Origin: Ralstonia sp. ASV6
Lineage (GTDB): Bacteria > Pseudomonadota > Gammaproteobacteria > Burkholderiales > Burkholderiaceae
Direction: 5' to 3'
Length of the DNA: 32,024 nucleotides
Assembly: GCF_016429285.1 (NCBI RefSeq)
Contig: NZ_JAELUI010000061.1
Location: 1 to 32,024, forward strand
The position numbers and the translations under genes are program-made. Numbering within the stretch: the stretch's first letter is position 1; the number at the start of each line of letters is the position of its first letter. Under the pieces are notes generated by a model. It did not search any database. It saw only the letters and a list, made by a program, of their open reading frames with translations, and was not told the DNA's origin. This document shows positions 2,270 through 31,516 of this stretch, piece by piece.

Positions 2270-3454
2270 CTACCGCGACTGCTCACTCTGGGCGACATGC
2301 CGTGCAGCGACCCACTCCTCATTTGTGGGCTCCACCGCCACACGAATCCGGCTGGCCGAACTGGAAATGATTGCGGCGTGCGCTTGGTTGGCCGCGTCAT
2401 CCAAATCGGCGCCCAGATAGCCGAGCGCACGCACGACGCGCTCACGCAGCACGGCGTTGTGTTCGCCAATCCCCGCCGTGAAAACCAGCAAGTCCAAGCC
2501 GCCAAGAACAGCCACCAGGGCACCGATTTCGCGGACGATGCGACGCACGTAAAGCGCCAGCGCCGCCTGCACGCGCGGGTTGTCGGCTTCTTGCGCCAAT
2601 AGATCGCGCGGGTCAGATGACACCCCCGACACGCCGAGCAGACCGGATTCGTGATACAGCACGTGCCCCACCTGTGCGGGAGAAAGATGCTCCGTCTCCA
2701 TCAGGTAGAGCACCGCGCCTGGGTCCAGGGCGCCGCAGCGTGTGCCCATCATCAGGCCGTCGAGCGCGGAAAACCCCATCGTGGTCGCCACGCTCTCGAG
2801 CCCGCGCATGGCACACAGGCTGGCACCGCTGCCAAGGTGCGCGACGATGGTTCTCCCACGGGCGATATCGCCATGTCGCTCGGGCAAGACGATCGACATG
2901 TACTCGTACGACAGCCCGTGAAAACCGTAGCGCCGCAACCCGCGCTCCCACGCGGCATACTGTAGCGGCAGCATCATTTCAACTTGCGGCAGCGTGTGGT
3001 GGAACGCTGTATCGAAACAGGCCACCTGCGGCACCTCGGGCAGATCTGACAGCAGCGCCTCGATGGCCTCCAACGCAAACGGCTGGTGCAGCGGTGCCAG
3101 CGGGATGAAGCTGCGCAAATCGGAAAGCACCTCCGCGTCCACACGTACGGGTGCAAAGTACTTGGCTCCGCCGTGCACCACACGGTGTGCCACGGCAACC
3201 AACCGACGGTTGCCGAGCACGTGCTCGACACGCCGGCGAATGTGCAGCAGCGCAGCGTGATACGGCTGCGCGGCGTCAAGCTCCACGGCCTGCGCTGGCG
3301 CTCCGACTTCCGCTACGGTGGGGTGATCGGTGCCGATGCCTTCCACTTTCCCGCTCCACACGGGGGTACGGGGCAACGGAAGCTGTGTGGCATCGAACAA
3401 CGCAAACTTGATGCTCGACGAGCCACAGTTCAGTACGACGATGCAATCGTTCAT
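2270..3454 (-). CDS. ackA: Acetate kinase
   Basis: A 394-residue cytoplasmic enzyme converting acetyl phosphate and ADP to acetate and ATP. It starts 'MNDCIVVLNCGSSSIKF', the N-terminal signature of the family (N7, S/T phosphate loop). Further motifs are HRVVHGG, 'CFDTAFHHT', 'RRYGFHGLSY', 'AHLGSGAS', 'MGFSALDGLMMGTRCGALDPG', 'FTAGIGEHN' and the C-terminal 'EPTNEEWVAA'. The length matches the usual approximately 400 residues. The ATG overlaps the stop of the upstream phosphate acetyltransferase gene by ATGA (3451-3454), so translation is probably coupled. It is the last gene of the PHA operon and supplies substrate-level ATP from acetyl-CoA together with its neighbour. A longer open frame runs upstream to 4000, but it overlaps the neighbour and has no family match there. 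Confidence 0.95.
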   Translation of the reverse strand: MNDCIVVLNCGSSSIKFALFDATQLPLPRTPVWSGKVEGIGTDHPTVAEVGAPAQAVELDAAQPYHAALLHIRRRVEHVLGNRRLVAVAHRVVHGGAKYFAPVRVDAEVLSDLRSFIPLAPLHQPFALEAIEALLSDLPEVPQVACFDTAFHHTLPQVEMMLPLQYAAWERGLRRYGFHGLSYEYMSIVLPERHGDIARGRTIVAHLGSGASLCAMRGLESVATTMGFSALDGLMMGTRCGALDPGAVLYLMETEHLSPAQVGHVLYHESGLLGVSGVSSDPRDLLAQEADNPRVQAALALYVRRIVREIGALVAVLGGLDLLVFTAGIGEHNAVLRERVVRALGYLGADLDDAANQAHAAIISSSASRIRVAVEPTNEEWVAARHVAQSEQSR

Positions 3455-4896
3455 GGCGGGAGGATGCGGTAACGGTGCGCCAGCAACGTGGCGACGGCAC
3501 ATGACGCAATGCGCGATTCGCGTGAATCGGCACGGCTGGTCAATACGATGGGCACGCGTGCGCCGAGCACAATGCCCGCGCTGGCGGCCCCACCCAGGTA
3601 TTCCAACTGCTTGGCGAGCATGTTGCCGCTTTCCAGATCCGGCACCACCAGCACATCGGCCTGCCCTGCCACTTCCGAAACGATGCCCTTGATGCGGGCT
3701 GCAGCGGCCGATACCGCGTTGTCGAAGGCCAGTGGCCCGTCCAGCACGCCTCCTTCGATCTGGCCGCGGTCGGCCATCTTGCACAACGCCGCTGCGTCGA
3801 GCGTGGCGGGCATGTGCGGGTTCACGGTTTCGACTGCCGCCAGGATCGCCACGCGCGGCCGCGCCACGCCAATCGCATGGGCCAGATCGATGGCGTTGCG
3901 GATGATGTCGGCCTTCTGATCCAAGGTCGGTGCAATGTTGATAGCGGCATCCGTCACGATAAACGGGCGTGGATACGCTGGTGTCTGCATGACGAAGCAA
4001 TGGCTGATCCGACGCTTGGTGCGCAGCCCGGCTTCAGCGCGCACCACGGCCGCCATCAGCTCATCCGTATGCAGGCTGCCTTTCATGAGCGCCTCGGCCT
4101 TGCCCAGCGCCACAAGCTCCACCGCGCGGGTGGCCGCGGCGCTGCTGTGTGGCACGTCTTCGATTTCCAGGCCGCTCAGGTCAAGCCCGGCTTCAGCGGC
4201 GACGCGCATCAACTTGGCGCGCGGTGCGACCAGGCACGGCACGATGAGCCCTTCAGCGCGGGCATCTAGCGCGGCGGACAGGCTCAGCGCATCGCACGGG
4301 TGGACGACCGCCATGCGGATCGCCCCCAGGGGCCGCACGTGATCAAGCAGCCGATGGATGCCATTGCCGCCGGTGGTGATGCGTACATCGGGCAGCGTTG
4401 TACGTGGGCGCTCGATCCGCTCGGTAGGCGCGATGACCTCGGCTTCTCCGGTAACGGCGATGACGCCACTGTCGTTGGTACAGGTGCACGCCAGCTTGAG
4501 CCGCTTGCTCCGCTCTTCCTTGCTGGTGACCGTCACGCGGATGGTCAACGTATCGCCAATACGCACCGGCGCGTGAAACTGCAATGTCTGCCCAAGATAG
4601 ACCGTACCGGGCCCAGGCAGGCGCGTTCCGAGCACGGCGGAAATCAACGCACCGCCCAGCATGCCGTGGGCAATCACACCATGAAAGCGCGTGGAGACCG
4701 CAAACTCGGGGTCCAAGTGCTGCGGGTTGACATCGCCCGACAGCACGGCAAAGAGCTGGATGTCCTCTGCTGTGAGCGTGCGCTGGATGGCGGCCGTTTC
4801 ACCAACGGCGATTTCGTCAAAGGTGCGATTGCGCACCACGCTCAGATCGCCGCCCGGCAGCGATGCCGGCGGCGCCGGCAGGTGGTCGGGGCCCAT
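3451..4896 (-). CDS. Bifunctional MaoC-like hydratase / phosphate acetyl(butyryl)transferase
   Basis: A 481-residue fusion. Residues about 20-160 are a MaoC-type hot-dog domain with the hydratase motif around 'LSGDVNPQHLDPEFA' (Asp and His of the catalytic pair), which in this family hydrates (R)-specific enoyl-CoA. Residues about 175-480 are a phosphotransacetylase/phosphotransbutyrylase domain ('MKGSLHTDELM', 'CFVMQTP...FIVTDAAINI', 'GPLAFDNAVS', 'ADVLVVPDLESGNMLAKQLEYL'). It should convert acyl-CoA plus phosphate to acyl phosphate, which the next gene, ackA, uses to make ATP. A GAGGAG ribosome site lies 5-6 bases before the ATG. The hydratase part could supply (R)-3-hydroxyacyl-CoA to PHA synthase in the same operon; that link is inference. 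Whether acetyl or butyryl is preferred is not readable. Confidence 0.9.
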   Translation of the reverse strand: MGPDHLPAPPASLPGGDLSVVRNRTFDEIAVGETAAIQRTLTAEDIQLFAVLSGDVNPQHLDPEFAVSTRFHGVIAHGMLGGALISAVLGTRLPGPGTVYLGQTLQFHAPVRIGDTLTIRVTVTSKEERSKRLKLACTCTNDSGVIAVTGEAEVIAPTERIERPRTTLPDVRITTGGNGIHRLLDHVRPLGAIRMAVVHPCDALSLSAALDARAEGLIVPCLVAPRAKLMRVAAEAGLDLSGLEIEDVPHSSAAATRAVELVALGKAEALMKGSLHTDELMAAVVRAEAGLRTKRRISHCFVMQTPAYPRPFIVTDAAINIAPTLDQKADIIRNAIDLAHAIGVARPRVAILAAVETVNPHMPATLDAAALCKMADRGQIEGGVLDGPLAFDNAVSAAAARIKGIVSEVAGQADVLVVPDLESGNMLAKQLEYLGGAASAGIVLGARVPIVLTSRADSRESRIASCAVATLLAHRYRILPP

Positions 4897-4905: not shown

Positions 4906-5412
4906 TCAGGAAGCCGTGCGAAGTTGACCGTTGCCCATGCTGCGCGCAGGTGCCGTGCCTGGCAACACTACTGCCGAGCGAATGAACGCATCGGCCGGCG
5001 CCCCCAACGAAGACAGCATGCCCTGCAGCACCGTATGTACCGGCATGGCATTCCCGGCCGCGCTCAGTGCCTGCACAGAGGCCTGCTGCCACGCCATCAT
5101 GGCGCGCTGGTAGTCCGTTGCAAAGCTCGCTTGATTGGCGATCGCTGTTTGCATCACGCCCTGAACCACATTCATTGCGCGTTGGTTGGCCTGCCAGAAA
5201 GCGCTGGGGAGCAGCGTTGCCCATGCGTTCCAGTCTTCAACGCCTTGCAGCTCGGTCAGCGCAGATTCTGTACGTCCTACGTCTTCAGCCAGCAATTCTG
5301 CACCCAGTTCATACCAGCGCTGCCGCGCCGTCTTGAGCAGGCCCAGTGTTTGCAGCCCGAGTGCGACTTGCGCCTTGAAGAGCGCGAGAGGAAGGTTGGC
5401 AGGTGTATCCAT
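4906..5412 (-). CDS. Phasin-like PHA granule-associated protein
   Basis: A 168-residue, mostly helical amphipathic protein rich in Ala, Gln and Leu, without signal peptide or membrane segment. Its pattern ('LFKAQVALGLQTLGLLKTARQRWYELGAELLAEDV', 'WNAWATLLPSAFWQANQRAM') fits small phasins that coat polyhydroxyalkanoate granules and control their size. AAGGAG stands 6 bases before the ATG. It sits between the ABC permease (9-base gap) and the MaoC-Pta fusion (9-base gap), in the operon led by PHA synthase, which supports the phasin assignment. The family call is by composition, helix pattern and context rather than a diagnostic motif. Confidence 0.7.
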   Translation of the reverse strand: MDTPANLPLALFKAQVALGLQTLGLLKTARQRWYELGAELLAEDVGRTESALTELQGVEDWNAWATLLPSAFWQANQRAMNVVQGVMQTAIANQASFATDYQRAMMAWQQASVQALSAAGNAMPVHTVLQGMLSSLGAPADAFIRSAVVLPGTAPARSMGNGQLRTAS

Positions 5413-5421: not shown

Positions 5422-6573
5422 TTAAGCCATCTGGCTGATGGTTTTACGAAAGCGCGTCAATGATGCGACAAACAGCACGGCACCGATTGCACCGATGGCC
5501 AGACACTGCGGCCATACGACGGACAATCCTGCGCCCCGATAAAGAATCGCTTGTGACGCCGATACAAAATGCGTGGTCGGCGCGGCCAGCATGATGTCCT
5601 GCACGAGTGCTGGCATGCTCTCGCGCGGGGTGGTACCGCCCGAGAGCAACTGCAGCGGCAGCAGCACCAGAACCAGCAGCATGCCGAACTGCGGCATGGA
5701 CCGCGCCACCGTCGCAAGGAAGATACCCATCGAGGTGGTGGCAAACAGGTGCAGCGTCGCCACCAGCATGAACAGCAGGATCGAACCTTCGATGGGCACA
5801 TGCAGCGCGCCTTGCACCACGCACACCAGTGCCATCAGCGCGGCCAGCACCACCACTAGCCCCATCGACCACACCTTGGCCGTCATGATCTCGAACGGCG
5901 TGACGGGCATCACCAGCAGGTGTTCGATGGTGCCGTGCTCCCGCTCCCGGATGAGCGCGGCGCCGGTCAGGATGATCGACAGCATGGTCACGTTGTTGAT
6001 GATCTCCATCAGCGAGCCGAACCACGTCTGTTCCAGGTTGGGGTTGAAGCGCGTGCGCAGCACCAGGTCAACCGGCGCGGCCGGTGCCGCACGGTGGCGC
6101 TGCAGGAACTCGCTCACCTCGCCCGAGACGATCTGCTGGATGTAGCCGTTTCCGGTAAAGGCCTGGCTCATGCGGGTGGCGTCAATGTTGAGCTGGATGG
6201 CCGGCGCGCGCCCCGCCAGCACGTCGCGCTGGAAGTTGGGCGGGATGTCGAGCACAAAGGTGTAGCGGCCGCTATCCATCCCGGCGTCCATCTCGGTAAG
6301 CGGAATCAGCGCGGGCGTGCGGAAATGCGGCGGATAGAACGCCGAGACAATGCGTGCCGACAACGGCGAGCTGTCCTCATCCACGATGGCAATCGAGGCG
6401 TTGTGCAGGCTCTCCGGCATGGCGGTGGCTGCCACGTAGATCGATAGCGTGAAAGTGTAGGCAATCAGCACCAGCATCATTGGGTCGCGTACCAGGCTCC
6501 ACAGCTCCTTCACACCAAGGCGGAAGATGTTGCGCAAGCGTGCCGCGCGGCGATCGGTCGGATGGTCTGACAT
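5422..6573 (-). CDS. ABC-2 type transporter permease, YhhJ-like
   Basis: A 383-residue inner-membrane permease of the ABC-2 family. One transmembrane segment near residues 28-52 is followed by a large periplasmic domain ('ATRMSQAFTGNGYIQQIVSGEV'), then 'FGSLMEIINNVTMLSIILTGAALIREREHGTIEHLLVMPVTPFEIM' and four to five more hydrophobic segments. The 'REREHGTIEHLLVMPVTP' loop is the ABC-2 family signature. It follows the RbbA-like gene by 9 bases, with an AGGGG ribosome site. In E. coli the same trio yhiI-rbbA-yhhJ occurs, so this is the second permease of that exporter. The substrate is unknown. Confidence 0.88.
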   Translation of the reverse strand: MSDHPTDRRAARLRNIFRLGVKELWSLVRDPMMLVLIAYTFTLSIYVAATAMPESLHNASIAIVDEDSSPLSARIVSAFYPPHFRTPALIPLTEMDAGMDSGRYTFVLDIPPNFQRDVLAGRAPAIQLNIDATRMSQAFTGNGYIQQIVSGEVSEFLQRHRAAPAAPVDLVLRTRFNPNLEQTWFGSLMEIINNVTMLSIILTGAALIREREHGTIEHLLVMPVTPFEIMTAKVWSMGLVVVLAALMALVCVVQGALHVPIEGSILLFMLVATLHLFATTSMGIFLATVARSMPQFGMLLVLVLLPLQLLSGGTTPRESMPALVQDIMLAAPTTHFVSASQAILYRGAGLSVVWPQCLAIGAIGAVLFVASLTRFRKTISQMA

Positions 6574-6582: not shown

Positions 6583-9384
6583 CTACCGATCCTGCTTGCG
6601 CAGCATCAACAGCGTGGCCGCCAGGATGACCGGCACCGCCGCCAGCAGCGGCCAGAAGGCGCTGCCCAATGCCCCCACATCCAGCGCCTTGCTGAACACG
6701 CCGCGGCTGATGGTCAGGAAGTGGGTGGCCGGATACACGCGCCCGATCATGGCCCCCACGCCCTCCAGCGACGACACGGGGTTGAGCAAACCCGCAAACT
6801 GCACACACGGGATGATCGTGCCGATCATGGTGACGAACATGGCGGCAATCTGGCTTTGCGTGAACGTGGACGCAAACAACCCGAAACCCGTCGAGCACGT
6901 CACGAAGATCAGCGCACCCAGCGCGAGCGTCGCAAAGCTGCCCTTGATCGGCACACCGAACACCGTCACCGCCAGCAACGCCAGCAGCAAGAAGTTCAGC
7001 ATCGCCAGCACGATGTACGGCGCCTGCTTGCCCAGCACGAATTCCGCCCGGGTGACCGGCGTCACGTAGAAATTGATGATGGAACCCAGTTCCTTTTCGC
7101 GCACCACCGACAACGCCGCCAGCATGGCGGGAATCATCATCAGCAGCATCGGAATCACGGCGGGCACCATGGCGGGCAGGCTTCTCACGTCGGGGTTGTA
7201 ACGATAGCGCGTCTCAATCGTGCTGGGCATCGCGAGCCGCATCCCCAGCCGGTGCACGGCGGCGTCTGCCAGCCAGAGTTGGTGGATGGCCTGCACATAG
7301 CCGCGTACGGTTTCTGCACGGGTGGGCATGGCGCCGTCCACCCAGGCGCCGATTTGTACGGCCGTGCCACGCTCCACATCGCGCGCAAAGCCCGGGGGAA
7401 TTTCAATCGCCAGCGACAGCTCGCCGTTGCGCATGCGGCGGTCCAACTCAGCGTAGTCGCGAATCGGAGGTTTTTCGATGAAATACCGCGAGCCGGCCAG
7501 GTTGAGCGCGTAATCGCGGGAAATTGCGGTCTGGTCGCGGTCGAGCACCGCGTAGGTGAGGTTCTCCACATCCAGGCTGATGCCGTATCCGATGATGAAC
7601 ATCAGGATGGCCGTGCCCAGCAAAGCCAGCGTGGCGCGTACCGGGTCGCGGCGCAATTCCAGCGCCTCGCGTTGCGAGTAGCTCAAGGCACGCGCGAGGC
7701 TGAAGTGACGGCGTGTAGACGTGCCGGTTGATGCGGTGGTTGTTGCTACGGGTGCGGGTGCGGCAATCTCGGCGGCGCCGGGAGCCGCGTCGGACACCGT
7801 TTCAGACGCCTCCCGCAGATAGGCGATGAATGCCTGCTCCAGCGTCTGCGTGCCGCGCGTACGTACCAGCGCGGCGGGCGCATCGCTCACCAGCACGCGG
7901 CCCGCATGCATGAGCGAGATGCGGTCACAGCGCTCGGCCTCGTTCATGAAGTGCGTGGAGATGAAGATGGTCACACGATCTTGCCGTGCCAGGTCAACCA
8001 TCAGGCGCCAGAACATGTCACGCGCGACCGGGTCGACCCCGGAGGTCGGTTCATCCAGGATCAGTAGTTCCGGCTTGTGCACCATCGCCACGGCCAGCGA
8101 CAGGCGCTGCCGCATGCCCAGCGGCAAGCGTTCGGGCAAGCTGTCGGCCACGTCCTGGAGCCCGAAGCGGGCGAGCATCTCTGCCGCGCGCGGCTGCACC
8201 TCGGGTTCGGGCAGTTGGAACAGGCGCGCATGCAGCACGAGGTTCTGGCGCACGGTCAACTCACCGTACAACGAGAACGCCTGCGACATGTAGCCCACGC
8301 GCCGGCGCGTATCGATGTCCTTGGGGTTGACCGGATGGCCAAACAACCACGCCTGGCCCTCGCTGGCGGGCAGCAGGCCGGTGAGCATCTTCATGGTGGT
8401 CGACTTGCCGCAGCCGTTGGAGCCGAGAAAACCGAAGATCTCACCACGGCGTATGCGGAAGTCGACGTGGTCGACCGCCACAAAGTCGCCAAAACGCATG
8501 GTCAGCCCGCCCGCCTGCACGGCCACATCGTCTTCCGCACCAGCCACCAGCGGTGGCACCACCACGGCTTGGTGCCCCTGCCGGCGCGCTGGCGGCAGCA
8601 GCGCAATGAACGCCGCCTCCAGCGAATCGGTGCTCGTGCGGCTGCGCAGCGCTGCCGGCGTGCCGGTGGCAAGCACCTGCCCTGCGTCCATGGCGACCAG
8701 CCAGTCAAAGCGTTCGGCCTCTTCCATGTACGCGGTGGCCACAACCACGCTCATGCCCGGGCGCCCGGCCCGAATGCTTGCAATCAAGTCCCAGAATTGG
8801 CTGCGCGAGAGCGGGTCAACACCCGTGGTCGGCTCATCGAGAATCAGCAGATCCGGGTCATGGATCAGCGCGCAGCACAGCGCCAGCTTCTGCTTCATGC
8901 CGCCCGACAACTTACCCGCCGGCCGCGAAAGGAATGGCCGAAGGCCGGTGCTGGCTGTGAGCGCATCGATACGTCGGCGGCGCTCCGCTGCGTTGTGACC
9001 GAACAGGCGGCCGAAGAACTGCAGGTTCTCTTCAACCGACAGCGTGGGGTACAAGTTGCGCCCCAAGCCTTGCGGCATATAGGCGATGCGCGGGCCGACC
9101 ACGGCACGTGCGCGGCGGTCGGCCATGTCACTGCCCAGCACATGCACCGCGCCATCCTGCAGGGCCCGTGCACCCGCCACCAACGACAGCAGGCTCGACT
9201 TGCCCACACCGTCGGGCCCGATCAGGCCCACCATGCAACCGGCCGGCAGGTCAAGCGTGATGCCATCCAGCGCCAGCGTCTTGCGGTAACGCAGGCTCAC
9301 GCCGGCCAGACTGACTACGGATGGACCAAGCGGCGGCCCAAGCTGGGCATCGTGCTGGGTAAGCGGATTGGCGAACGGGGTCAC
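6583..9384 (-). CDS. RbbA-like ABC transporter: two ATPase domains fused to an ABC-2 permease
   Basis: A large fusion (about 933 residues from the GTG start). The first ATPase has Walker [10 protein letters not shown], signature LSGGMKQK and Walker [13 protein letters not shown]. The second has Walker [11 protein letters not shown], Walker [13 protein letters not shown] and a degenerate signature LPLGMRQR in place of LSGG. The C-terminal approximately 370 residues form an ABC-2 permease with a periplasmic domain and the loop '[22 protein letters not shown]'. The organisation matches E. coli RbbA (YhiH). I chose GTG at 9384 because it overlaps the adaptor's stop as GTGA (9381-9384) with AAGG 7 bases upstream; ATG codons at 9417 and 9444 in the same frame would overlap the adaptor more. 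It probably exports a small molecule through the adaptor and outer-membrane channel. Confidence 0.88.
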
Positions 9385-10454
9385 TGCGGAACCTTGATCG
9401 CCAGGTTGACCGGCCATTCGGCTTGCGCATCGAGCTTGAGCCACGCCATGCCGGGCAGACCCGTCTTCACCAGCTTGAGGTGCTTGCGCAGCAGATCACG
9501 ATCAATCTGCGCCTTGACACGGAACATCAGCTTCTGGCGCTCGGAGGCGGTTTCTACAGTCTTGGGTGTGAACTGTGCGGTACTGGCCACGAACGATACG
9601 CGGGCCGGAATCACGTACTGCGGCGCGGCGTCGAGCACGATGCGCACCTCGCTGCCCATGGCAATGCGTCCAGCGTCCGTTTCTGGCACGAAGAAGGTCA
9701 TGTAGACGTCGGACAGATCCACCAGGTTGAGCAACCGCCCGCCACCGGCCAGCACCTCGCCAGGCTGGGCGATGCGGTATTGCACGCGGGCGTCACGCGG
9801 GGCAGCCAGGGCGCTGTCGTCAATATCCGCTTTTACGCGCGACACCGTCGCGTCTGCTGCCTTGACCGTGGCATTGGCGCCGGCCACCTGCGTGCGGGCT
9901 GCGGCCACAGCGGCCTGCGCCGCTTCCGCTTGCGCGCGGGCCGCCACCAGTGCGGCCTTGGCGCCACGCACACGGGCGCGATCGTCATCCAGCTCCTGCA
10001 TGGACGACGCCCCTTCGCGCGACAGCGTTTCAGAACGCGCCAACCTGCGCTGTGCAGCATCCAGGTCGCTTTCGCGCAGGGCGACCTGTGCCAGGGCCGC
10101 CTGCCGGTCGGCCTCGCGCACGGCCACCTGGGCTTGTGCACTGGCCACGGCGGAGACGGACTGCTGCTGCCGCGCCTGGGCCTCGTCGCGCTGGGCCTCC
10201 AGCGTCTGCACCTGCATGTGCGCCAGCGGCTGGCCGGCGTTCACGAAGTCGCCCTCATCCACCAGAATGTCCTGCACGCGGCCGGGCAGTTTGGTGGCCA
10301 CGTCGATCTCGGTGGCTTCAATGCGGCCGTTACCGCTGGCAAATCCCTTGCCGGGGCCGTCCTGCTGCAAGGCCTTCCACGCAAACGCACCACCGGCAAT
10401 CACCAGGGCGGCAGCGATCAATGCAATCCATCGTTGTTGGGGCGTTGTTGTCAT
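9381..10454 (-). CDS. HlyD-family periplasmic adaptor protein, YhiI-like
   Basis: A 357-residue membrane-fusion protein. An N-terminal membrane anchor ('[22 protein letters not shown]') is followed by a lipoyl half ('[34 protein letters not shown]'), a long Ala/Gln/Arg-rich coiled coil, and the second lipoyl half and beta-barrel ('[38 protein letters not shown]'). It bridges the inner-membrane ABC transporter and the outer-membrane factor. The ATG overlaps the upstream gene's TGA (ATGA, 10451-10454). Its stop overlaps the GTG of the ATPase gene, so the export genes are translationally coupled. A longer frame upstream to 10754 is the shadow of the outer-membrane gene. Confidence 0.9.
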
Positions 10455-11974
10455 GGTGTTGTTTTTCCCGATGCGCGCGGGGGCGGCGTCAGGCTCAGAT
10501 GGGTATGGGTATCGGATGCGGATTCGACGGCCTGTGTACCGCCGCCCAGCGCCGCGTACAGCCCTACGCGGCTGGAGAGCAGCGCGCGGCGCACCTGCAC
10601 CAGTTGCTGCTGCGCGGCCAGCAGATCGCGCTGTGCGTCGAGCACCTCCAGAAATGCCGAGGCCCCCGCATCGAAGCGCAGTTGCGACAGCCGTGCGCGC
10701 TCGGTCTGCGCTGCCAGCGTGGCCTGCGCGATGTCGAGCTGTTCGGCCAGCCACTTGCGCGCGGACAACGCATCAGACACATCGCGAAACGCGCTTTGTA
10801 CGGTCTTCTCGTAGCCCGCGACGGCAAGATCACGGCGGGCTTGCGCCAGGTCCAGGTTGCTGCGCAGCTTGCCGCCTTCGAACAGCGGGAGGGTCACGCT
10901 CGGCGCAAAAACCCAGGCACGCGTGCCGGGTGCAAACAGGTTGCCCAGTTCTGGGCTGACCGTGCCGTAGGCGCCCGTCAATGCCACGCGCGGGAAGAAT
11001 GCCGCGCGTGCCGCGCCGATGCTGGCGTGCGCAGCACGCAGCCGGTGCTCTGCGGCAGCGATGTCCGGGCGTTGCGTCAGAAGATCAGAGGGCAGCCCTG
11101 CACGCAACTCCACCAGCATCCGGTGCTCATCGAGTGGCTCTGCTACCGGTGGCAGGTCGATGGGCTTACCCACGAGCAGCGTCAGGCCATGCGCCTGCGC
11201 ATCGCGCGCTTGCTGCAGTTGCGTGAGCAGTGCCTGCGCCTGGGTCAGCAGAGTCTCGACTTGCGTCTGGTTCAACCGCGATGTCGCCCCCACTGCCACG
11301 CGGCGCGAAAAGATGCGCAGGGTCTCGGTGCGGCTGTCCACGGTCTGCTGTGCCAGCGCGATGCGCTCATCCAGCTCACGCAGGACCAGATAGCTGTCAG
11401 CCACCTGCGCGATCAGCCCGAGTGCGACTGCACGGCGCGCCGCATCAGACGCCACGTAGCTTTCCAGCGCGGCGTCATTGAGATTGCGCACGCGCCCCCA
11501 GAAATCGATCTCCCAACTTGAGACACCGGCGCCCACCTGGTACTGGCTCACGCGCATGGGCATGCCGAAGGGGCTCAGGTCAGCCGGAATGCTCAGGCGG
11601 TTGATGCCAGCCTGCGCGTTGAGGTGCGGAAACGTTTCCGCGCGCTGGATGCCGAACGCCGCGCGTGCCTCTTCCACGCGCAGCACCGCGGTCCGCAAGT
11701 CGCGGTTGTTCTCCAGCGCCTGGGCAATCAACGCCTGCAGACGCGTATCCGTAAAGTAGGCTTGCCAGCCGACGGCAGCGGCGGACAGACCATCACGGTC
11801 ATCGTTGGCGTCATAGTGCTGGGCCACGGGCAGCGCCGGGGCTTCGTATGGCGGCGCCATCGAGATGCAGCCCGACAACGCCAGTACGGCTGTGGCTGAG
11901 GCCATTGCGGCAAGGGCGGCCATATGCGTGCCGGCGTACCAGCCGTACGCCGTGGTCTTATCCTGCTCACGCAT
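10451..11974 (-). CDS. Outer-membrane efflux lipoprotein, NodT/OprM type
   Basis: A 507-residue outer-membrane channel of the TolC/OprM class. An N-terminal hydrophobic stretch ends in the lipobox LSGC at about residue 35, followed by 'ISMAPPYEAPALPVAQHY', typical of the NodT family. Two repeats of the TolC fold are visible, with family motifs 'DFWGRVRNLNDAALESY', 'QRPDIAAAEHRLRAAHASIGAARAAFFPRVALTGAYG' and 'FEGGKLRSNLDLAQARRDLAVAGYEK'. The start ATG directly follows the stop of the PHA synthase gene (TAA at 11975-11977). It completes a three-part exporter with the HlyD-like and RbbA-like proteins. Confidence 0.9.
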   Translation of the reverse strand: MREQDKTTAYGWYAGTHMAALAAMASATAVLALSGCISMAPPYEAPALPVAQHYDANDDRDGLSAAAVGWQAYFTDTRLQALIAQALENNRDLRTAVLRVEEARAAFGIQRAETFPHLNAQAGINRLSIPADLSPFGMPMRVSQYQVGAGVSSWEIDFWGRVRNLNDAALESYVASDAARRAVALGLIAQVADSYLVLRELDERIALAQQTVDSRTETLRIFSRRVAVGATSRLNQTQVETLLTQAQALLTQLQQARDAQAHGLTLLVGKPIDLPPVAEPLDEHRMLVELRAGLPSDLLTQRPDIAAAEHRLRAAHASIGAARAAFFPRVALTGAYGTVSPELGNLFAPGTRAWVFAPSVTLPLFEGGKLRSNLDLAQARRDLAVAGYEKTVQSAFRDVSDALSARKWLAEQLDIAQATLAAQTERARLSQLRFDAGASAFLEVLDAQRDLLAAQQQLVQVRRALLSSRVGLYAALGGGTQAVESASDTHTHLSLTPPPRASGKTTP

Positions 11975-13732
11975 TTATTTCTCCAGCACGTAGATGCCAG
12001 GCGCATCGCCCAACGGCGGCAGGCCCGGAGCCCCCATCTTCGGCGGCTTGACCGGTGTGGGGGCAGATGCATGCGTGGTCAGCCACGCATGCCATGCCGG
12101 CCACCATGAACCGTCCGTGGTTGGGGCCGACGCCAGCCAGTCATCCGGCGCCAGCGAAACCCCGCCCGCGTGACGTGTCTGCATCTGGAAGCGCCGATGC
12201 GAATTTGCCGGTGGGCTGACAATGCCGGCATTGTGGCCGCCGCTGGTCAGCACGAATGTCAGCTCCGCCTCGGTCAAGTGATGCAGCTTGTAGACCGAGC
12301 GCCATGGCGCGACATGATCGGTCAGCGTGCCCACCACGAAGATCGGCAGGTCCAGATCGTTCAGGATCACCGGCTTGCCGTTGACGGGGTAGCGGCCCTC
12401 GCTCAGGTCGTCGTTCAGGAACAGGCGCCGCAGGTACTGGCTATGCATGCGCGCGGGCATGCGCGTGGCATCGGCGTTCCAGGCCATCAGGTCGTTCATG
12501 GGCGCGCGATCACCCAGCAGGTATTCGCCCACCACGCGTGACCACAGCAAGTCATACGACCGCAGCATCTGGAAGGCGCCAGCCATCTGGCTTGCACGCA
12601 GATAGCCGGTCTGCGCCATCTGCGCCTCAAGCAGACTGACCTGCGCTTCGTCAATGAAGAGCCCCAGCTCACCCGGTTCGCAAAAGTCCGTCTGCGCGGC
12701 AAAGAGCGTCATGGACGCCAGCCGCGCATCGCCATCGCGCGCCATGGCCGCCGCTGCAATGGCCAGCAGTGTGCCGCCCAGGCAGTAGCCCGTGGCGTGC
12801 ACGCGCTGATTCGGCACGATGGCGTTGACCGCATCGAGCGCGGCGAAGACGCCGAGCTTGAGGTAGTCATCCATGTCGAGATCGCGGTCGGCCTCGTCAG
12901 GGTTCTTCCACGAGATGCAGAACACAGTATGGCCCTGCTCCACCAGATAGCGAATCAGCGAGTTCTGCGGGGACAGATCCAGGATGTAGTACTTCATGAT
13001 CCACGCCGGCACGATCAGGATGGGCTCGGCCTGGACCTTGGGCCTGACAGACGGGTTGGGCGCGTACTGGATCAACTCCATCAGGCGATTGCGCAGCACG
13101 ACCTTGCCGGGCGTCACCGCCACGTCGCGCCCCACCACAAAGCGTTCGGTGCCGGCGGCCGGCGCACCGCTCATGGCACGTTCCAGATCGTCAAGCGCGT
13201 TGAGCGCGCCCCGCACGAGATTGGCGCCGTGCTGCTCAAAGGTTTGACGCAGGACGACGGGGTTCGTCGCCAGTTGGTTGCCCGGCGACATCATGTCGAG
13301 CCACTGCCGTGCGGCAAAGGCCACCACGTCTTCATGGTGCTGGGCGACACCCCACACGCCGCGTGTTGTCGCCTCCCACCATTGCTCAGTCAGCAGGAAG
13401 GTTTGGTGCAGCACGTTGAACGGCCACAGGCGCCACTCATCGGCCTGGAAACGACGGTCTTGTGCCGGCGGCAGAACGCAAAGACTCGCCTGTTGAGGGC
13501 CAGCCGCCATGCAGTTCTGGATGTAGCGCCCGAGCTGCTCGGCCTGGGTCAGTGCCAGGCGGCACAGATCGAGCCGCTTGCCGGGCGACACCGCCAAGTG
13601 CAGTGCCCAATCGAGCAACGCCAGTTGCATCGATACCAGTGACAACGAACCCGACGTACGTGCAAGTGCAGCGTGAAACGGTGGATCAATCAACTCGGCA
13701 GCTGGGGAAGACGGCACGGGGGCGGTGCGCAT
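11975..13732 (-). CDS. phaC: Class I poly(3-hydroxyalkanoate) synthase
   Basis: Polymerises (R)-3-hydroxyacyl-CoA into polyester granules in the cytoplasm. The lipase-like box 'GYCLGG' holds nucleophile Cys317 (ATG numbering), close to the Cys319 known in Cupriavidus necator PhaC. The catalytic Asp is in 'VVGTLTDHVAPW' and the His in 'TSGGHNAGIV'. The total of 585 residues fits class I. An in-frame TTG at 13756 would add 8 residues, but a TTG start would leave almost no leader from the predicted promoter, so ATG 13732 is preferred. An FNR-like box lies upstream at 13796-13809. It is the first gene of the eight-gene operon ending with ackA. No phaA or phaB is in the window, so it is probably an accessory synthase. 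Confidence 0.92.
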   Translation of the reverse strand: MRTAPVPSSPAAELIDPPFHAALARTSGSLSLVSMQLALLDWALHLAVSPGKRLDLCRLALTQAEQLGRYIQNCMAAGPQQASLCVLPPAQDRRFQADEWRLWPFNVLHQTFLLTEQWWEATTRGVWGVAQHHEDVVAFAARQWLDMMSPGNQLATNPVVLRQTFEQHGANLVRGALNALDDLERAMSGAPAAGTERFVVGRDVAVTPGKVVLRNRLMELIQYAPNPSVRPKVQAEPILIVPAWIMKYYILDLSPQNSLIRYLVEQGHTVFCISWKNPDEADRDLDMDDYLKLGVFAALDAVNAIVPNQRVHATGYCLGGTLLAIAAAAMARDGDARLASMTLFAAQTDFCEPGELGLFIDEAQVSLLEAQMAQTGYLRASQMAGAFQMLRSYDLLWSRVVGEYLLGDRAPMNDLMAWNADATRMPARMHSQYLRRLFLNDDLSEGRYPVNGKPVILNDLDLPIFVVGTLTDHVAPWRSVYKLHHLTEAELTFVLTSGGHNAGIVSPPANSHRRFQMQTRHAGGVSLAPDDWLASAPTTDGSWWPAWHAWLTTHASAPTPVKPPKMGAPGLPPLGDAPGIYVLEK

Positions 13733-13767
13733 GGTCGGGGCGTTAAACGTTTGCAAATATGCAATCC

Positions 13768-13773
13768 ATTAGA
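13768..13773 (-). promoter_or_regulatory. Candidate -10 element of the phaC operon promoter
   Basis: On the minus strand the hexamer reads TCTAAT, 5 of 6 matches to TATAAT. Its first base is 29.5 positions from the centre of the FNR-like box at 13796-13809, exactly the -12 to -7 placement of a class II FNR promoter (box at -41.5). The predicted transcript start is near 13761. Confidence 0.6.
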
Positions 13774-13795
13774 TGCCAGCTGCCGCAGCATGAAC

Positions 13796-13809
13796 TTGAT
13801 GCATCTCAA
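13796..13809 (-). promoter_or_regulatory. FNR/Anr-type binding site upstream of phaC operon
   Basis: The site reads ttgat-gcat-ctcaa on the plus strand (TTGAG-ATGC-ATCAA on the minus), 9 of 10 positions of the consensus TTGAT-N4-ATCAA. With the -10 hexamer at 13768-13773 it forms a class II arrangement, which predicts activation of the operon when oxygen is low. Confidence 0.7.
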
Positions 13810-13859
13810 ACCGAGACAAGAGTGCCGACTCTAGACGCCCTTCACAGAAATGACACGCA

Positions 13860-22649: not shown

Positions 22650-22663
22650 TTGATCCGTATCAA
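22650..22663 (+). promoter_or_regulatory. FNR/Anr-type binding site upstream of ftsH
   Basis: TTGAT-CCGT-ATCAA is a perfect 10 of 10 match to the FNR/Anr consensus. It lies 98 bases before the preferred ftsH ATG (22762). No convincing -10 hexamer is seen at the class II position (22686-22691), so the promoter architecture is unclear. Confidence 0.7.
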
Positions 22664-26658: not shown

Positions 26659-26755
26659 GGCAAGCCTCCTGGGCGACGATTCGAAACACGGCACCGCGCC
26701 GCACCCACAACCGGCTCTTCCCGGCAGTTTGCGAGCCGTACTCCACTCCACTCTC

Positions 26756-26761
26756 ATCATG
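26756..26761 (-). promoter_or_regulatory. Candidate -10 element of the pfkB promoter
   Basis: Minus-strand CATGAT matches TATAAT at 4 of 6 positions and lies at exactly -12 to -7 relative to the centre of the FNR box 26784-26797. The predicted transcript start is near 26749, giving a leader of about 90 bases to the pfkB ATG. Confidence 0.45.
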
Positions 26762-26783
26762 GGCACGCAAATGCGCGCCAGCG

Positions 26784-26797
26784 TTGATACGCATCAA
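26784..26797. promoter_or_regulatory. FNR/Anr-type binding site between pfkB and DUF3300
   Basis: TTGAT-ACGC-ATCAA is a perfect palindromic match to the consensus, placed between two divergent genes. Toward pfkB a 4-of-6 -10 hexamer sits at class II distance; toward DUF3300 the hexamer AATATG (26820-26825, 3 of 6) is at the same distance. One site could therefore activate both directions. Confidence 0.72.
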
Positions 26798-26892
26798 CCG
26801 TCATCGGCACGCCTGACCCAATATGGATCGCATGAGGAACAGGCCCGCCAAGGGCTCGCTGCTCCAATGTCGTGAAGGTGAGGAGGCTGTCG

Positions 26893-28092
26893 ATGAACGC
26901 GAGATCGGTGAAGCCGCTGGCAGTGGCCCTGGCGCTCGTGCTGCTGCTCTTCAACGTGGCCTTCTCTCAACCTGGCGTGCTGGTGAGCGACCCGCCTCTG
27001 GCCAGTGCCGAACAGCTCGATCCACTGTTGGCGCCAATCGCGCTGTACCCGGATCCGCTTGTCTCCCAGATCCTCATGGCGGCCACGTATCCGCTCGAAG
27101 TGGTGCAGGCCGATCGTTGGCTGCAGGAGCCCAGCCACGCCGCGCTTGGCGGTGATTCGTTGACCAACGCGCTTGCACCGCTACCATGGGACCCGAGTGT
27201 GAAATCGCTGGTGCCGTTCCCGGGGCTGCTGCGCATGATGGATGACAACCTCGACTGGACAGAGCGCGTGGGCAACGCATTCCTGGCGGACGAGGCGGCT
27301 GTGATGGATTCAATCCAACGCCTACGCAGTCATGCCGCCGCTGCCGGCACACTGGCATCGACCACGCAGGCGATGGTGTCGACAGAGGATGGTGCCATCA
27401 CCATCGAGCCGACCAATCCTGAAGTCGTCTACGTTCCGGTCTACGATCCCTACGTCGTCTATGCGCCTTGGCCGTATCCCGCGTACCCGCCCTACCTCTT
27501 TCCCGATATCTGGGGTGGTGTGGTCATCGGCGGGCTCGGTATCGGCTGGGTCGGTTTCTCGGTGGTCGTCCCGCTGTGGGGCTGGGACCACGTCAACTGG
27601 CACGGCCATCGCATTGATATTGATCGCGGGCGCTTCGGCAATATCGACCACCATCGCGCTCCCATCAGCGGTATCTGGGCACATGATCCGGGGCATCGTC
27701 ACGGCGTTCCCTATCCAAGCGCGATACCAGCGGGGCGATTCGGTGGCGCAGCCATTTCACCGGATGTGCGGCGTGGTTTCCAGGGCTATCCGATGCCCTC
27801 CGCAACGCCGGCCGGATCCGTCATTCGCCCCTCTCCCGTGGGACCTGCACGCCCGGCGCTCGATGCGCCGCGGAGCTCGCCACGTCAGGCGCCTACGGCG
27901 CGCCCGGCTGCGCGTGCACCGTCGCCAAGCTACCCACCAACATTCGAGTCGTACGGACACGGCGCCGACGTGCGCGGCCAAGCGCAACGTGGGCAAGCCA
28001 GCCGTATGTCGGCCGCACCGCAAACAAGCGCGCCCTCGTTCAGAGGTGCCGCGCCACACGCCGCACCCGCTGGCGGCGGCAGGAGACGATGA
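26893..28092 (+). CDS. DUF3300 domain exported protein
   Basis: A 399-residue exported protein of unknown function. An N-terminal signal peptide ('PLAVALALVLLLFNVAFSQPG') precedes the DUF3300 core ('LDPLLAPIALYPDPLVSQILMAATYPLEVVQADRWLQ', 'WDPSVKSLVPFPGLLRMMDDNLDWTERVGNAFLADEAAVMDSIQRLR', 'NPEVVYVPVYDPYVVY'). This is followed by a Gly/Trp-rich hydrophobic section that may insert in a membrane and a Pro/Ala/Ser/Arg-rich low-complexity tail. AGGAGG at 26881-26886 sets the ATG at 26893. It overlaps the DUF2950 gene's first codon, the usual pairing of these families. Confidence 0.9.
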   Translation: MNARSVKPLAVALALVLLLFNVAFSQPGVLVSDPPLASAEQLDPLLAPIALYPDPLVSQILMAATYPLEVVQADRWLQEPSHAALGGDSLTNALAPLPWDPSVKSLVPFPGLLRMMDDNLDWTERVGNAFLADEAAVMDSIQRLRSHAAAAGTLASTTQAMVSTEDGAITIEPTNPEVVYVPVYDPYVVYAPWPYPAYPPYLFPDIWGGVVIGGLGIGWVGFSVVVPLWGWDHVNWHGHRIDIDRGRFGNIDHHRAPISGIWAHDPGHRHGVPYPSAIPAGRFGGAAISPDVRRGFQGYPMPSATPAGSVIRPSPVGPARPALDAPRSSPRQAPTARPAARAPSPSYPPTFESYGHGADVRGQAQRGQASRMSAAPQTSAPSFRGAAPHAAPAGGGRRR

Positions 28093-29039
28093 TGCGAGAG
28101 ACTTGCAAAGTGGCGTGCCTGCGCCGTCTTGCCATCCTTCTTGTGGCGCTGGCGGCCTGGATGACGTGCCCGTCATCATGGGCCGACCGGCAGTTGCAGC
28201 AGGGCTTCGCCTCCCCCGAGAAGGCCGCCGAGGCGTTGGCCGCTGCCTGGCGCAGCGGCAATAGCGATGCTCTTCTCGCACTGTTCGGCCCAGGTGGGGC
28301 GAAGCTGGTGCGGTCCGGCGACCCGATCGGAGAACAGATCGCCCGAAGCAAACTGGCCTCAGCGTACGACGAAGCGCATCGAATCGAAACCGATGGCGCG
28401 GGCTATGCAGTCATCATTCTTGGCAAGGACGATTGGCCTTATCCGATTCCGTTGGCAATGCGCGGCGCGCAATGGCAGTTTGATACCCAAGCCGGTGCGC
28501 AGCAGATCATTGACCGGCGCATCGGCCATCACGAGGCCCATGCCATCCGCGTCTGCCGCGCATATGTTGAAGCACAGTTGCGCTATGCCACATCGCATCG
28601 CACCGTGGATGGGCAGCCCGAGTTCGCCCAACGTATTGCCAGTTCACCCGGCAAGCACGATGGCCTCTACTGGGTCGCCTCGGCCGGCGAGGAAGAAAGC
28701 CCGATGGGGCCACTCATCGCGATCGCAGACGCCCAACGTCACTCCATATCGGCTGCTGTAGTTGTCACGCCATTTCATGGCTATGTCTTTCGCATTCTGA
28801 CGCAGCAGGGCGCCCATGCACCGGGTGGCGCACACGACTACGTTGTCAACGGACACATGACGCGCGGCTTTGCATTGCTCGCCTTCCCTGCGGCGTTTGG
28901 TGCATCCGGCGTCATGACATTCGTCGTCAATCAAAACGGTGTCGTCTACGAGAAGAACCTCGGGCCGCACACGGCTGACATCGCCCGTCGCATGCGGGTG
29001 TATGACCCGGATGACAGCTGGAAGCCCGCACTCCCCTGA
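28089..29039 (+). CDS. DUF2950 domain exported protein
   Basis: A 316-residue protein of unknown function with a signal peptide ('RLAILLVALAAWMTCPSSWA'). The mature part shows DUF2950 features: 'FASPEKAAEALAAAWRSGNSDALLALFGPGG', 'DWPYPIPLAMRGAQWQFDTQAGAQQIIDRRIGHHEAHAIRVCRAYVEAQLRYA', 'ASSPGKHDGLYWVASAGEEESPMGPL', 'FHGYVFRILTQQGAHAPGGAHDYVVNGHMTRGFALLAFPA' and 'FVVNQNGVVYEKNLG'. Its ATG (28089) overlaps the DUF3300 stop, with AGGAG just upstream; ATG 28092 is equally possible. It probably acts in the periplasm together with the DUF3300 protein. Confidence 0.9.
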   Translation: MMRETCKVACLRRLAILLVALAAWMTCPSSWADRQLQQGFASPEKAAEALAAAWRSGNSDALLALFGPGGAKLVRSGDPIGEQIARSKLASAYDEAHRIETDGAGYAVIILGKDDWPYPIPLAMRGAQWQFDTQAGAQQIIDRRIGHHEAHAIRVCRAYVEAQLRYATSHRTVDGQPEFAQRIASSPGKHDGLYWVASAGEEESPMGPLIAIADAQRHSISAAVVVTPFHGYVFRILTQQGAHAPGGAHDYVVNGHMTRGFALLAFPAAFGASGVMTFVVNQNGVVYEKNLGPHTADIARRMRVYDPDDSWKPALP

Positions 29040-29040
29040 G

Positions 29041-29904
29041 ATGGCCCAGAAACACGCCCGCCGCATACACCACGTCATGAACGGAACGCCCACCCCGAAT
29101 AGCAACGAGGCCCCCGCAATCGTAACGGAGCAGTTGACCAAGCGATTCGGTAGTGTGGTGGCACTCGATGGGTTTTCGCTGGCCATCGCCAAAGGGCAGA
29201 TCTTCGGCCTGCTCGGCCCGAATGGCGCGGGCAAGAGCACCACGATCAAGATCCTGACGACCTTGCTCGATGCCAGCTCAGGTTCGGCCAGAGTTGCCGG
29301 TTTCGATGTAGCCAGGAGCCCTGTCGAGGTGCGGCGCCGTATCGGGTATGTGCCGCAACTGCTGTCAGCCGACGGCGCACTGACTGCGCGTGAGAACCTG
29401 GATCTGTCAGCTCGCCTGCACGGCCTTCATGGTGCCCGCCGCAAGGAGCGCGTACAGGAGGCGCTGGCGTTCGCGGGGCTTGGCAATGTGGCCGATTACC
29501 TCGTGCGGACCTATTCAGGCGGCATGATCCGCCGCCTGGAGGTAGCGCAAGCAACATTGCACCACCCCGAGATCCTGTTCCTCGACGAGCCGACGATTGG
29601 CCTGGACCCGATGGCGCGAAAGACCGTGTGGGAGCGCCTTGAGCAGCTTTGCCAGGACCACCAGGTGACGATCCTCATCACAACGCACGACATGGAAGAA
29701 GCCGACGTACTGTGCGACTGTCTGGCGGTGCTCCACGAAGGCCGACTCGCTGTCGTCGGCAAGCCTGAGGAACTGAAATCGCAAGTGGGCCCCGGGGCAG
29801 ACCTGAATGACGTATTCGCACATTTCAGCGGCGCAGTGATCGAGCATGGCGGCAGTTACCGAAACATTCGCGAAAGCCGAAGTGCCATCCGACGACTGGG
29901 GTGA
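29041..29904 (+). CDS. ABC transporter ATP-binding protein, DrrA-like
   Basis: A 287-residue ATPase energising an exporter. Walker A 'GLLGPNGAGKSTT', Q-loop 'YVPQLLSADGALTARENL', signature 'YSGGM', Walker B 'ILFLDEPTIGLDP' and the H-loop 'LITTHDME' are all present. The sequence resembles the DrrA/CcmA-type multidrug and polysaccharide exporters. The DUF2950 stop precedes ATG 29041 by one base; an alternative ATG is at 29077 and neither has a strong ribosome site. It is cotranscribed with the downstream permease, 3 bases away. Confidence 0.92.
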   Translation: MAQKHARRIHHVMNGTPTPNSNEAPAIVTEQLTKRFGSVVALDGFSLAIAKGQIFGLLGPNGAGKSTTIKILTTLLDASSGSARVAGFDVARSPVEVRRRIGYVPQLLSADGALTARENLDLSARLHGLHGARRKERVQEALAFAGLGNVADYLVRTYSGGMIRRLEVAQATLHHPEILFLDEPTIGLDPMARKTVWERLEQLCQDHQVTILITTHDMEEADVLCDCLAVLHEGRLAVVGKPEELKSQVGPGADLNDVFAHFSGAVIEHGGSYRNIRESRSAIRRLG

Positions 29905-29907
29905 CGA

Positions 29908-30678
29908 ATGTTCGGTGTCCTGTACGAAAGTTTCGCCGTTGCAGACGCAGAGATACGCAAACTGCGCCGCGATCCGACCGAGCTGCTCTCTCGCGCCATC
30001 CAACCGGTGCTGTGGCTTGTCGTGTTCGGCCAGGTGTTCAGCGCCGTGCGCGGTATTCCCACCGGCCAACTGCGCTACCTCGACTACATGACGCCGGGCA
30101 TCCTGGCGCAGAGCATTCTGTTCTCCTCAATCTTCTACGGCATTGCCATCATCTGGGAGCGCGACCTGGGCATTGTTCACAAGCTGTTGGTCACGCCTGC
30201 CCACCGCAGTGCTCTGGTACTTGGCAAGGCGTTCGCTGCTGCCCTGCGTGGCCTCGTTCAGGCGATGGTCGTCTACCTCATTGCCGTGGCGCTTCACGTT
30301 TCCGTGCGCACGCAGCCGCTGGCTATCGTGACTGTCATTTGCAGCGTGTTCATCGGCTCGTGCATTTTTTCCACGTTTTCTTTGGTAATTGCCTGCATCG
30401 TGAAGACACGTGAGCGCTTCATGGGCATCGGCCAGGTGTTGACGATGCCACTTTTCTTCGCCTCGAACGCGATCTACCCGCTCGACCTCATGCCGCCCTG
30501 GTTGCGGGTTCTCGCCACGATCAACCCACTCACCTACCTCGTCGATACGCTGCGTGGCGCGATGATCGTCGGGGGTGTCAGCAACTACGGCATCACAACT
30601 AGCTTTGGCGTCATGATCGGCGTATTCGCGGTGCTGCTGGCCGTTGCCACGCGCCTCTATCCAAGCCTGGCGCGTTGA
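29908..30678 (+). CDS. ABC-2 type transporter permease, DrrB-like
   Basis: A 256-residue inner-membrane permease with about six hydrophobic segments: 'PVLWLVVFGQVFSAV', 'GILAQSILFSSIFYGIAIIWERDLGIVHKLLVTPAHRSALVLGK' and the stretches around residues 115-170, 175-200 and 230-250. The 'ERDLGIVHKLLVTP' loop is the ABC-2 signature and 'FASNAIYPLDLMPPWLRVLATINPLTYLVD' is typical of DrrB/NodJ-type permeases. It pairs with the preceding ATPase. The substrate is unknown; the position after DUF3300/DUF2950 suggests an envelope role, which is inference. Confidence 0.9.
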   Translation: MFGVLYESFAVADAEIRKLRRDPTELLSRAIQPVLWLVVFGQVFSAVRGIPTGQLRYLDYMTPGILAQSILFSSIFYGIAIIWERDLGIVHKLLVTPAHRSALVLGKAFAAALRGLVQAMVVYLIAVALHVSVRTQPLAIVTVICSVFIGSCIFSTFSLVIACIVKTRERFMGIGQVLTMPLFFASNAIYPLDLMPPWLRVLATINPLTYLVDTLRGAMIVGGVSNYGITTSFGVMIGVFAVLLAVATRLYPSLAR

Positions 30679-30826
30679 CGGCCGTCATCCTGCCGCGCGA
30701 GGGAGGTTTGCTTGATCCAGCCCAAACCGCAATGCGTTGCGATGGCTAAGCTGAGAAATGACCGACCGCTCGCTCCAGATCGAAGTGCGCTGCGCATCGG
30801 CAGAACTGCGATCAACAGGAGTCAAC
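30679..30826. other. Intergenic region before the zinc-ribbon gene
   Basis: GACGGCCGTC at 30677-30686 is a small palindrome at the permease stop. TTGAT-CCAG-CCCAA at 30712-30725 is a weak FNR-like match (8 of 10) without a -10 hexamer at the right distance. AGGAG lies 6 bases before ATG 30827. No gene is seen. Confidence 0.35.
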
Positions 30827-31327
30827 ATGAAATTGCGTTCCCAATCCGGGCGGGTCCGGCCGGCACGCTGGAGCCCTTTCTCCGAAGAGCCGATCCATGA
30901 GCACTACCGCCAACCCGACAAAACCCCGGCAGCAAGCTGCTGCCCGGTTTGCGGAGCCGTCTTTCTGAAGGGCCGCTGGCAGTGGCGCAATCCGCCTCCC
31001 GGCGCAAAGACGATGGTCTGCTCCGCTTGCCGGCGCGCGGCGGATCAAGTGCCCGCAGCACGCATCCGTCTGTCAGGTCACTTTGAAGCGGCCCATCGGG
31101 AAGAAGTCCTCATGCTCGCGCGCCATCGCGAAGCGGCGTTGCGGGCGGACCACCCAATGGAGCGCATCATGGCGGTGGAGTCGACGGCAGACAGCACCGA
31201 AATCCTGACAACAGGGTTCCACCTGGCGCGAGACATCGGCCACGCAATCCACCATGCGTTCCAGGGGCGACTGACGTTCAATTACGGCAACGCCGCAACC
31301 GAACTGCATGTGGAGTGGGCTCGATAG
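30827..31327 (+). CDS. Zinc-ribbon hypothetical protein, NMD3-like style
   Basis: A 166-residue basic protein. Residues 38-68 form a likely zinc ribbon: Cys39-Pro-Val-Cys42 and Cys65-Ser-Ala-Cys68, separated by a Trp/Pro-rich stretch. The C-terminal half is mixed ('AAHREEVLMLARHREAALRADHPMERIMAVE', 'FHLARDIGHAIHHAFQGRLTFNYGNAATELHVEW'). From memory, similar Burkholderia proteins are annotated NMD3-like or as 'ATPase', but no nucleotide-binding motif is present, so an RNA- or ribosome-related role is only a suggestion. The AGGAG ribosome site fixes the start. It is the only gene between the ABC permease and the convergent rhomboid gene. Confidence 0.7.
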   Translation: MKLRSQSGRVRPARWSPFSEEPIHEHYRQPDKTPAASCCPVCGAVFLKGRWQWRNPPPGAKTMVCSACRRAADQVPAARIRLSGHFEAAHREEVLMLARHREAALRADHPMERIMAVESTADSTEILTTGFHLARDIGHAIHHAFQGRLTFNYGNAATELHVEWAR

Positions 31328-31348
31328 CGCATCAAGACAGAAGACAAG

Positions 31349-31392
31349 GTGCCGCCGCCCCAGAAAGACCTCCGTCTCTGCGCTGGCGGCAC
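31349..31392. repeat. Long inverted repeat between convergent genes, possible bidirectional terminator
   Basis: GTGCCGCC (31349-31356) and GGCGGCAC (31385-31392) are perfect 8-bp complements. Inside the loop AGAC-CTCC-GTCT (31366-31377) forms a second stem that can extend by CAG/CTG across a two-base bulge. It sits between the zinc-ribbon gene and the convergent rhomboid gene. There is no T-run on either side, so it may be a structured RNA end rather than a classical terminator. Confidence 0.45.
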
Positions 31393-31516
31393 GGTGGACG
31401 CCCTTCAGCGGAACGCCGTCGCGAAGCATGTTCCACACCGTTTGCGACCCAACAACGGCGCTGTGCGCCTCCAGCTTGAAACGCTACGGATAGCGCTGAG
31501 ACAACACACGCCCGCC

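Follow-up and report, generated by a model that had tools for sequence, protein, structure and literature searches.

A probable class II FNR-type promoter upstream of a phaC-led gene run in Ralstonia, in a locus resembling the low-oxygen-activated lxa locus of Burkholderia

The window analysed here (the whole 32,024-nucleotide stretch of contig NZ_JAELUI010000061.1 from Ralstonia sp. ASV6, designated C524) contains on its minus strand a closely packed run of genes that is led by phaC, continues with the components of an ABC export system and a protein of 168 residues, and ends with a fused MaoC-phosphate acetyl/butyryltransferase (MaoC-Pta) gene and the adjoining acetate/propionate kinase gene ackA (Table 1). 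Neighbouring genes from phaC to ackA overlap or stand 0-9 bases apart, and the terminator-like sites on the minus strand within the run (at 4674 and 5494) lie inside genes. Aligned to a PHA synthase from the PDB, the PhaC protein displays the catalytic motifs GYCLG at 315, TDHVAPW at 471 and GGHNAGI at 498, and thus a Cys-Asp-His triad with a lipase-like box, which we take to be formed by C317, D472 and H500. Its score against the NCBIfam model for class I PHA synthases (TIGR01838) is 533.7 bits, below the cut-off of 622.65, so that the enzyme is related to this family but divergent. The left contig end (59-586) is occupied by an open reading frame with an integrase core of the transposase type.

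Table 1. Genes and observed or predicted regulatory features of the window.
Feature	Position	Strand	Remarks
Acetate/propionate-family kinase (AckA)	2270..3454	minus	ATG 3454 taken as start
Fused MaoC-type enoyl-CoA hydratase + phosphate acetyl/butyryltransferase	3451..4896	minus	NF006045 above cut-off
168-residue protein	4906..5412	minus	no Pfam or NCBIfam match; clear Shine-Dalgarno
ABC-2 permease	5422..6573	minus	Pfam/NCBIfam
RbbA-type ABC ATPase/permease	6583..9444	minus	NF033858 above cut-off; start uncertain
HlyD-type periplasmic adaptor	9381..10454	minus	ATG 10454 taken as start; scanned stretch began at 10463
Outer membrane efflux protein (OEP, NodT-type)	10451..11974	minus	Pfam/NCBIfam
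phaC, divergent class I-like PHA synthase	11975..13732	minus	Pfam, NCBIfam; ATG 13732; C317, D472, H500 in catalytic motifs
Predicted transcription start (+1)	13761	minus	inferred from class II geometry
-10 hexamer TCTAAT	13768..13773	minus (13773-13768)	5/6 to TATAAT
FNR-type box TTGAGATGCATCAA	13796..13809	minus (13809-13796)	9/10 to TTGATNNNNATCAA; centre 13802.5 (-41.5)
Second conserved block	13818..13856	minus	GTGTCA (13856-13851), 17 bases, TAGAGT (13833-13828); possible second promoter or other site
Perfect FNR box upstream of ftsH	22650..22663	not assigned	no class II-spaced -10 on either strand
Perfect FNR box before PfkB-family kinase gene	26784..26797	minus	CATGAT (26761-26756, 4/6) at same 29.5 spacing

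In class II FNR promoters the FNR box is centred at -41.5 and the -10 element stands at its normal spacing. Upstream of phaC, the centre of a palindromic box close to TTGATNNNNATCAA and the first base of the TCTAAT hexamer are separated by 29.5 positions on the minus strand of the window, the class II spacing, which places the box at -41.5 from the predicted +1. Recomputation on the minus strand confirmed the preliminary description of this DNA, which had reported a box with nine of ten matches at exactly this distance from a -10 hexamer with five of six; the arrangement exceeds chance expectation, and the class II FNR-type architecture proposed there is borne out by the conservation of box, -10 and spacing detailed below. 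The same box centre and normal -10 spacing are found in the model class II FNR promoter FF-41.5 (named in PMC4505428), from which the present case differs in that the box matches nine of ten positions in the window and eight of ten in seven of 12 sister species, and in that its +1 is a predicted one. A consensus promoter scan of the window did not list the TCTAAT/FNR-box site, because the scan demands a -35 hexamer as well as an A at the second base of the -10 element, and TCTAAT is without that A. A literature search, which misses most subscription journals, found no paper on the phaC FNR promoter.

The predicted +1 also bears on the translation start of phaC, for which the preliminary description had preferred ATG 13732 to TTG 13756. 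This preference holds: the ATG is present in all 13 Ralstonia sequences compared, an in-frame TTG at the corresponding place (-24) occurs in two of them (the window and L003), and insertions and deletions between the -10 element and the ATG alter the frame among the sequences. A transcript starting at 13761 would have a leader of 29 bases before the ATG and of five before the TTG, and TTG 13756 was rejected as the phaC start. There is no Shine-Dalgarno sequence before ATG 13732, unlike several of the downstream genes.

The window holds three FNR boxes with at most one mismatch, where 0.40 are expected, and none of 100 shuffled sequences reached three; such a box together with a -10 hexamer of at least 5/6 at the exact spacing was found a single time in the window, and 150 first-order Markov windows yielded no case. 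Together with the negative housekeeping phaC paralogues described below, these controls speak strongly against a chance match of the box. In the whole genome there are 134 sites with at most one mismatch, versus 13 for a reversed control pattern. Nine of the 134 lie on the window contig and on contig C461, where 1.6 would be expected (binomial P 3e-5, for a comparison picked after the sites had been seen), as do three of the genome's four perfect sites. The perfect box upstream of ftsH is also perfect in a second Ralstonia genome, G137 (L143:10412-10425), where neither strand has a -10 at the class II distance either. The PfkB promoter is weakened as a conserved second case by the lack of a box with at most one mismatch before PfkB in the G137 region fetched; the box at 26784 sits in a stretch (26727-31515, with DUF3300, DUF2950 and ABC genes) that is unmatched in the corresponding G137 region.

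A search of 16 Ralstonia genomes, the present one included, found a full-length phaC of this type in 13, only the last 324 residues in G024, and none in G087 and G151. The 13 promoters (own and 12 others, a second copy in G150 being excluded) were aligned. TTGA-N6-TCAA and TCTAAT are both invariant in all 13, and the distance from box centre to -10 is 29.5 in 12, being one base shorter in L013; this was the scan of orthologous promoters that the preliminary description had proposed as a check. The box matches the consensus at nine of ten positions in six sequences (L002, L003, L010, L012, L013 and L126) and at eight of ten in the other seven, so its affinity may be modest. In three genomes (G043, G121 and G067) DNA similarity to the window begins at 13855; box, -10 element and operon have thus been kept though the DNA further upstream differs. 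L010 (G058) has the same promoter sequence as R. pickettii H2Cu5 (L036), and L009 (G077) the same as Ralstonia sp. UNC404CL21Col (L037). The 330 bases ahead of the phaC remnant of G024 (L027; 324 residues, 92% identical) contain no FNR box.

Beyond Ralstonia, related phaC genes were compared at 80 named loci, the best 80 of 592 confirmed matches, three of which are from Ralstonia. Within 400 bases upstream, a box with at most one mismatch was found in 21 of these best 80 loci and one with at most two in 46, as compared with 0-1 and 1-10, respectively, for six composition-matched control palindromes at the same loci; in 34 of the best 80 there is no box with up to two mismatches within 400 bp. 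At 55 of 94 non-Ralstonia loci there were 65 boxes whose spacing could be assessed, by counting at each distance the hexamers that match TATAAT in at least four of six positions. These peak at 29.5 (17 of the 65 boxes), with eight at 28.5 and 0-3 at every other offset; 48 of the 65 boxes are without such a hexamer at exactly 29.5.

That the box is not universal is illustrated by a set of 37 non-Ralstonia family loci. Fourteen of these (L014-L026 and L028, with proteins 57-60% identical, L028 54%) all carry a box with at most two mismatches, in 12 cases with at most one, while among the other 23 (48-55% identity) a box with at most one mismatch occurs only in L186 and one with at most two in six. 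One control palindrome reached 14 of the 37 loci at two mismatches and three at one, so the two-mismatch figure alone is weak. Eight of the 37 related phaC upstreams, versus none of 20 housekeeping ones, combine a box with a -10 hexamer that scores 4/6 or better and lies no more than one base from the class II position. The regions upstream of housekeeping phaC genes contain no box in 15 Ralstonia cases; in 20 from other Burkholderiaceae there is none with at most one mismatch and there are two weak ones with at most two. These controls, and the 22 of 23 distant relatives without a box of at most one mismatch, rule out, for this sample, FNR control as a general trait of PhaC in this family; nonetheless, the main phaC1 of Herbaspirillum is reported as an Fnr target (PMC5934665), unlike the Ralstonia housekeeping genes. 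At four of the non-Ralstonia loci (L017, L019, L020 and L022) two FNR-like boxes stand 80-94 bases apart upstream of phaC, a pairing that suggests tandem sites.

The genome encodes two FNR proteins. Ten HTH_Crp_2 hits were found, nine of them above the family cut-off, and two of the ten (on contigs C527 and C461; L116 and L117) combine CxxCx5C and a fourth cysteine, placed by alignment to solved FNR-type regulators, with an ETVSR recognition helix, that is, the four cluster cysteines and the E..SR helix of FNR. A motif search of the other eight hits found neither the FNR cysteines nor ETVSR. The C461 paralogue is present in all eight Ralstonia genomes searched, and its gene lies 33 kb (G137), 29 kb (G113), 2.5 kb (G129), about 88 kb (G024), 114 kb (G043) or 171 kb (G067) from phaC, G087 being without such a phaC. 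In the gene order of G137 the start of C461 comes after the right end of the window, which probably makes the C461 FNR gene, here too, a member of the extended locus that includes phaC.

Judged by the comparative evidence, the class II interpretation is well supported, and we consider it probable that phaC is preceded by a class II FNR-type promoter, one that confers oxygen-responsive transcription on the genes from phaC to ackA. FNR binding, activation, oxygen dependence and co-transcription are what we infer from this arrangement: as oxygen falls, a [4Fe-4S] FNR dimer would bind the box centred at -41.5 and touch RNA polymerase at TCTAAT, transcription would begin near 13761, and the transcript, translated from ATG 13732, would cover phaC, the ABC export genes, the 168-residue protein, MaoC-Pta and AckA.

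The box might instead be used by another CRP/FNR regulator of the Dnr/NnrR or FixK type, with nitric oxide or a relay of the FixLJ type as the signal. Invariance is confined to the TTGA...TCAA core (in all 13 Ralstonia sequences one half-site has G at position 5), the regulator of phaC2 in Bradyrhizobium is FixK2 (PMC10888616), and G043 and G067 possess further such proteins that are 37-47% identical to the C461 FNR; against this, the FNR cysteines and the ETVSR helix occur in only two of the ten hits of the present genome, in both cases together, and we regard a different regulator as unlikely. A dual role, with FNR acting as activator at 13761 and as a block on a further promoter upstream (the GTGTCA-17-TAGAGT block), appears quite improbable. 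Such a block is conceivable because the box would fall about 13-26 bases downstream of the start of that promoter (near 13821), and the block shows some conservation in the Ralstonia alignment, where 11 of 13 sequences have TAGAGT and ten have both (A/G)TGTC(A/G) and TAGAGT, and where the segment common to G043, G121 and G067 starts at this very block. Its hexamers, however, match the consensus at only four of six positions each, a total of 8/12 where the consensus scan asks for nine, and L013 has lost the pair, while L011 and L012 show changes in it. That box and hexamer are coincidental, with phaC transcribed by readthrough from the Mg-ATPase genes that precede it, is scarcely credible: these genes are co-directional with phaC and no terminator-like site is listed in the gap, but the box is conserved across genera at fixed spacing, is negative in the paralogue controls, and is retained with its -10 in the three genomes that differ upstream.

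The phaC operon also has a place in a larger locus, which the preliminary description overlooked. In Burkholderia cenocepacia, the low-oxygen-activated locus lxa (BCAM0275-BCAM0323) is reported to be strongly induced at low oxygen and to be needed for anoxic persistence (PMC6127331, PMC9104464), and it contains the FNR protein BCAM0287 (PMC4505428). By family names, the lxa locus as described in PMC6127331 and the window have in common DUF1488, Hsp20-type, metallo-beta-lactamase (with beta-CASP in the window), phosphofructokinase/PfkB and phosphate acetyl/butyryltransferase proteins, and a zinc alcohol dehydrogenase is common to lxa and the adjoining contig C461 (PMC6127331). The FNR gene lies inside the lxa locus (PMC4505428), and in Ralstonia 2.5-33 kb from phaC in three of the eight genomes searched. 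The two loci differ in that the phaC operon of Ralstonia includes an RbbA-type exporter as well as a fusion of MaoC and Pta. In addition, lxa has six universal stress proteins, a domain not found among 30 open reading frames of the window and ten of those on C461. In its gene families, then, the locus of which the phaC operon appears to form one part resembles lxa.

FNR-type control of phaC has been described in other bacteria. The Ralstonia promoter is a new example of a regulatory principle with precedents in Herbaspirillum and Bradyrhizobium and, by gene content, in Burkholderia lxa. In Herbaspirillum seropedicae, where phaC is likewise under FNR-type control, phaC1 and the dksA-phaC2-fabI operon are reported as direct Fnr1 targets (PMC5934665; reviewed in PMC9049629); the operon content differs, and the targets include phaC1, on which PHB accumulation depends (PMC5934665). 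The phaC2 of Bradyrhizobium diazoefficiens, likewise a paralogue under a CRP/FNR-type regulator, is a FixK2 target raised in microoxia (PMC10888616, PMC6515984), FixK2 in this case being fed by FixLJ; its product is reported to be inactive as a synthase and is described as possibly pairing with PhaC1 in heterodimers of lower activity (PMC10888616). According to a review, phaC of Pseudomonas extremaustralis depends on Anr (PMC9049629).

The preliminary description had further concluded that oxygen loss switches on PHA synthesis, export and acetyl-phosphate ATP generation together. The packed, phaC-led run to ackA agrees with this, but the physiological reading is only partly supported and the idea of a single unit is overstated. 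The exporter is optional: G129 lacks the exporter genes between phaC and the gene for the 168-residue protein, and in R. pickettii H2Cu5 (L036 10001-14000) phaC is followed directly by a piece of the ABC permease gene and the 168-residue gene, with no match at this locus for the remaining exporter genes. FNR control of phaC and of the Pta-AckA end is thus the more constant theme, and the exporter looks like an addition to the operon. A second limit concerns PHA synthesis: the FixK2-controlled PhaC2 of Bradyrhizobium is reported to be inactive (PMC10888616), and a fixK2 mutant is reported to contain more PHB (PMC9049629).

The physiological effect of the predicted oxygen response and of any PHA output is probably a low-oxygen survival programme within the lxa-like locus, in which acyl phosphates would supply ATP at substrate level and the PHA synthase paralogue would handle acyl-CoA and reductant. 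In these terms, the promoter is a concrete candidate for an oxygen switch in Ralstonia that governs both a paralogous PHA synthase and a module making ATP from acyl phosphates. A broader proposal, which we find plausible yet on balance somewhat doubtful, is that low oxygen is the particular role of a whole proteobacterial PhaC clade (roughly, proteins at least 57% identical, though with exceptions in both directions), marked by a deeply conserved class II FNR-type promoter absent from housekeeping PhaC of the same family, its enzyme serving redox/ATP balance or tuning the main synthase rather than carbon storage. If true, it might account for second phaC genes like phaC2 of R. eutropha, which is described as being of unknown physiological function and whose deletion together with phaB2 left aerobic PHA unchanged (PMC10788006); such genes may be low-oxygen genes. 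Among the best 80 of the 592 loci, phaC lies near MaoC-Pta and acetate kinase genes in 31.
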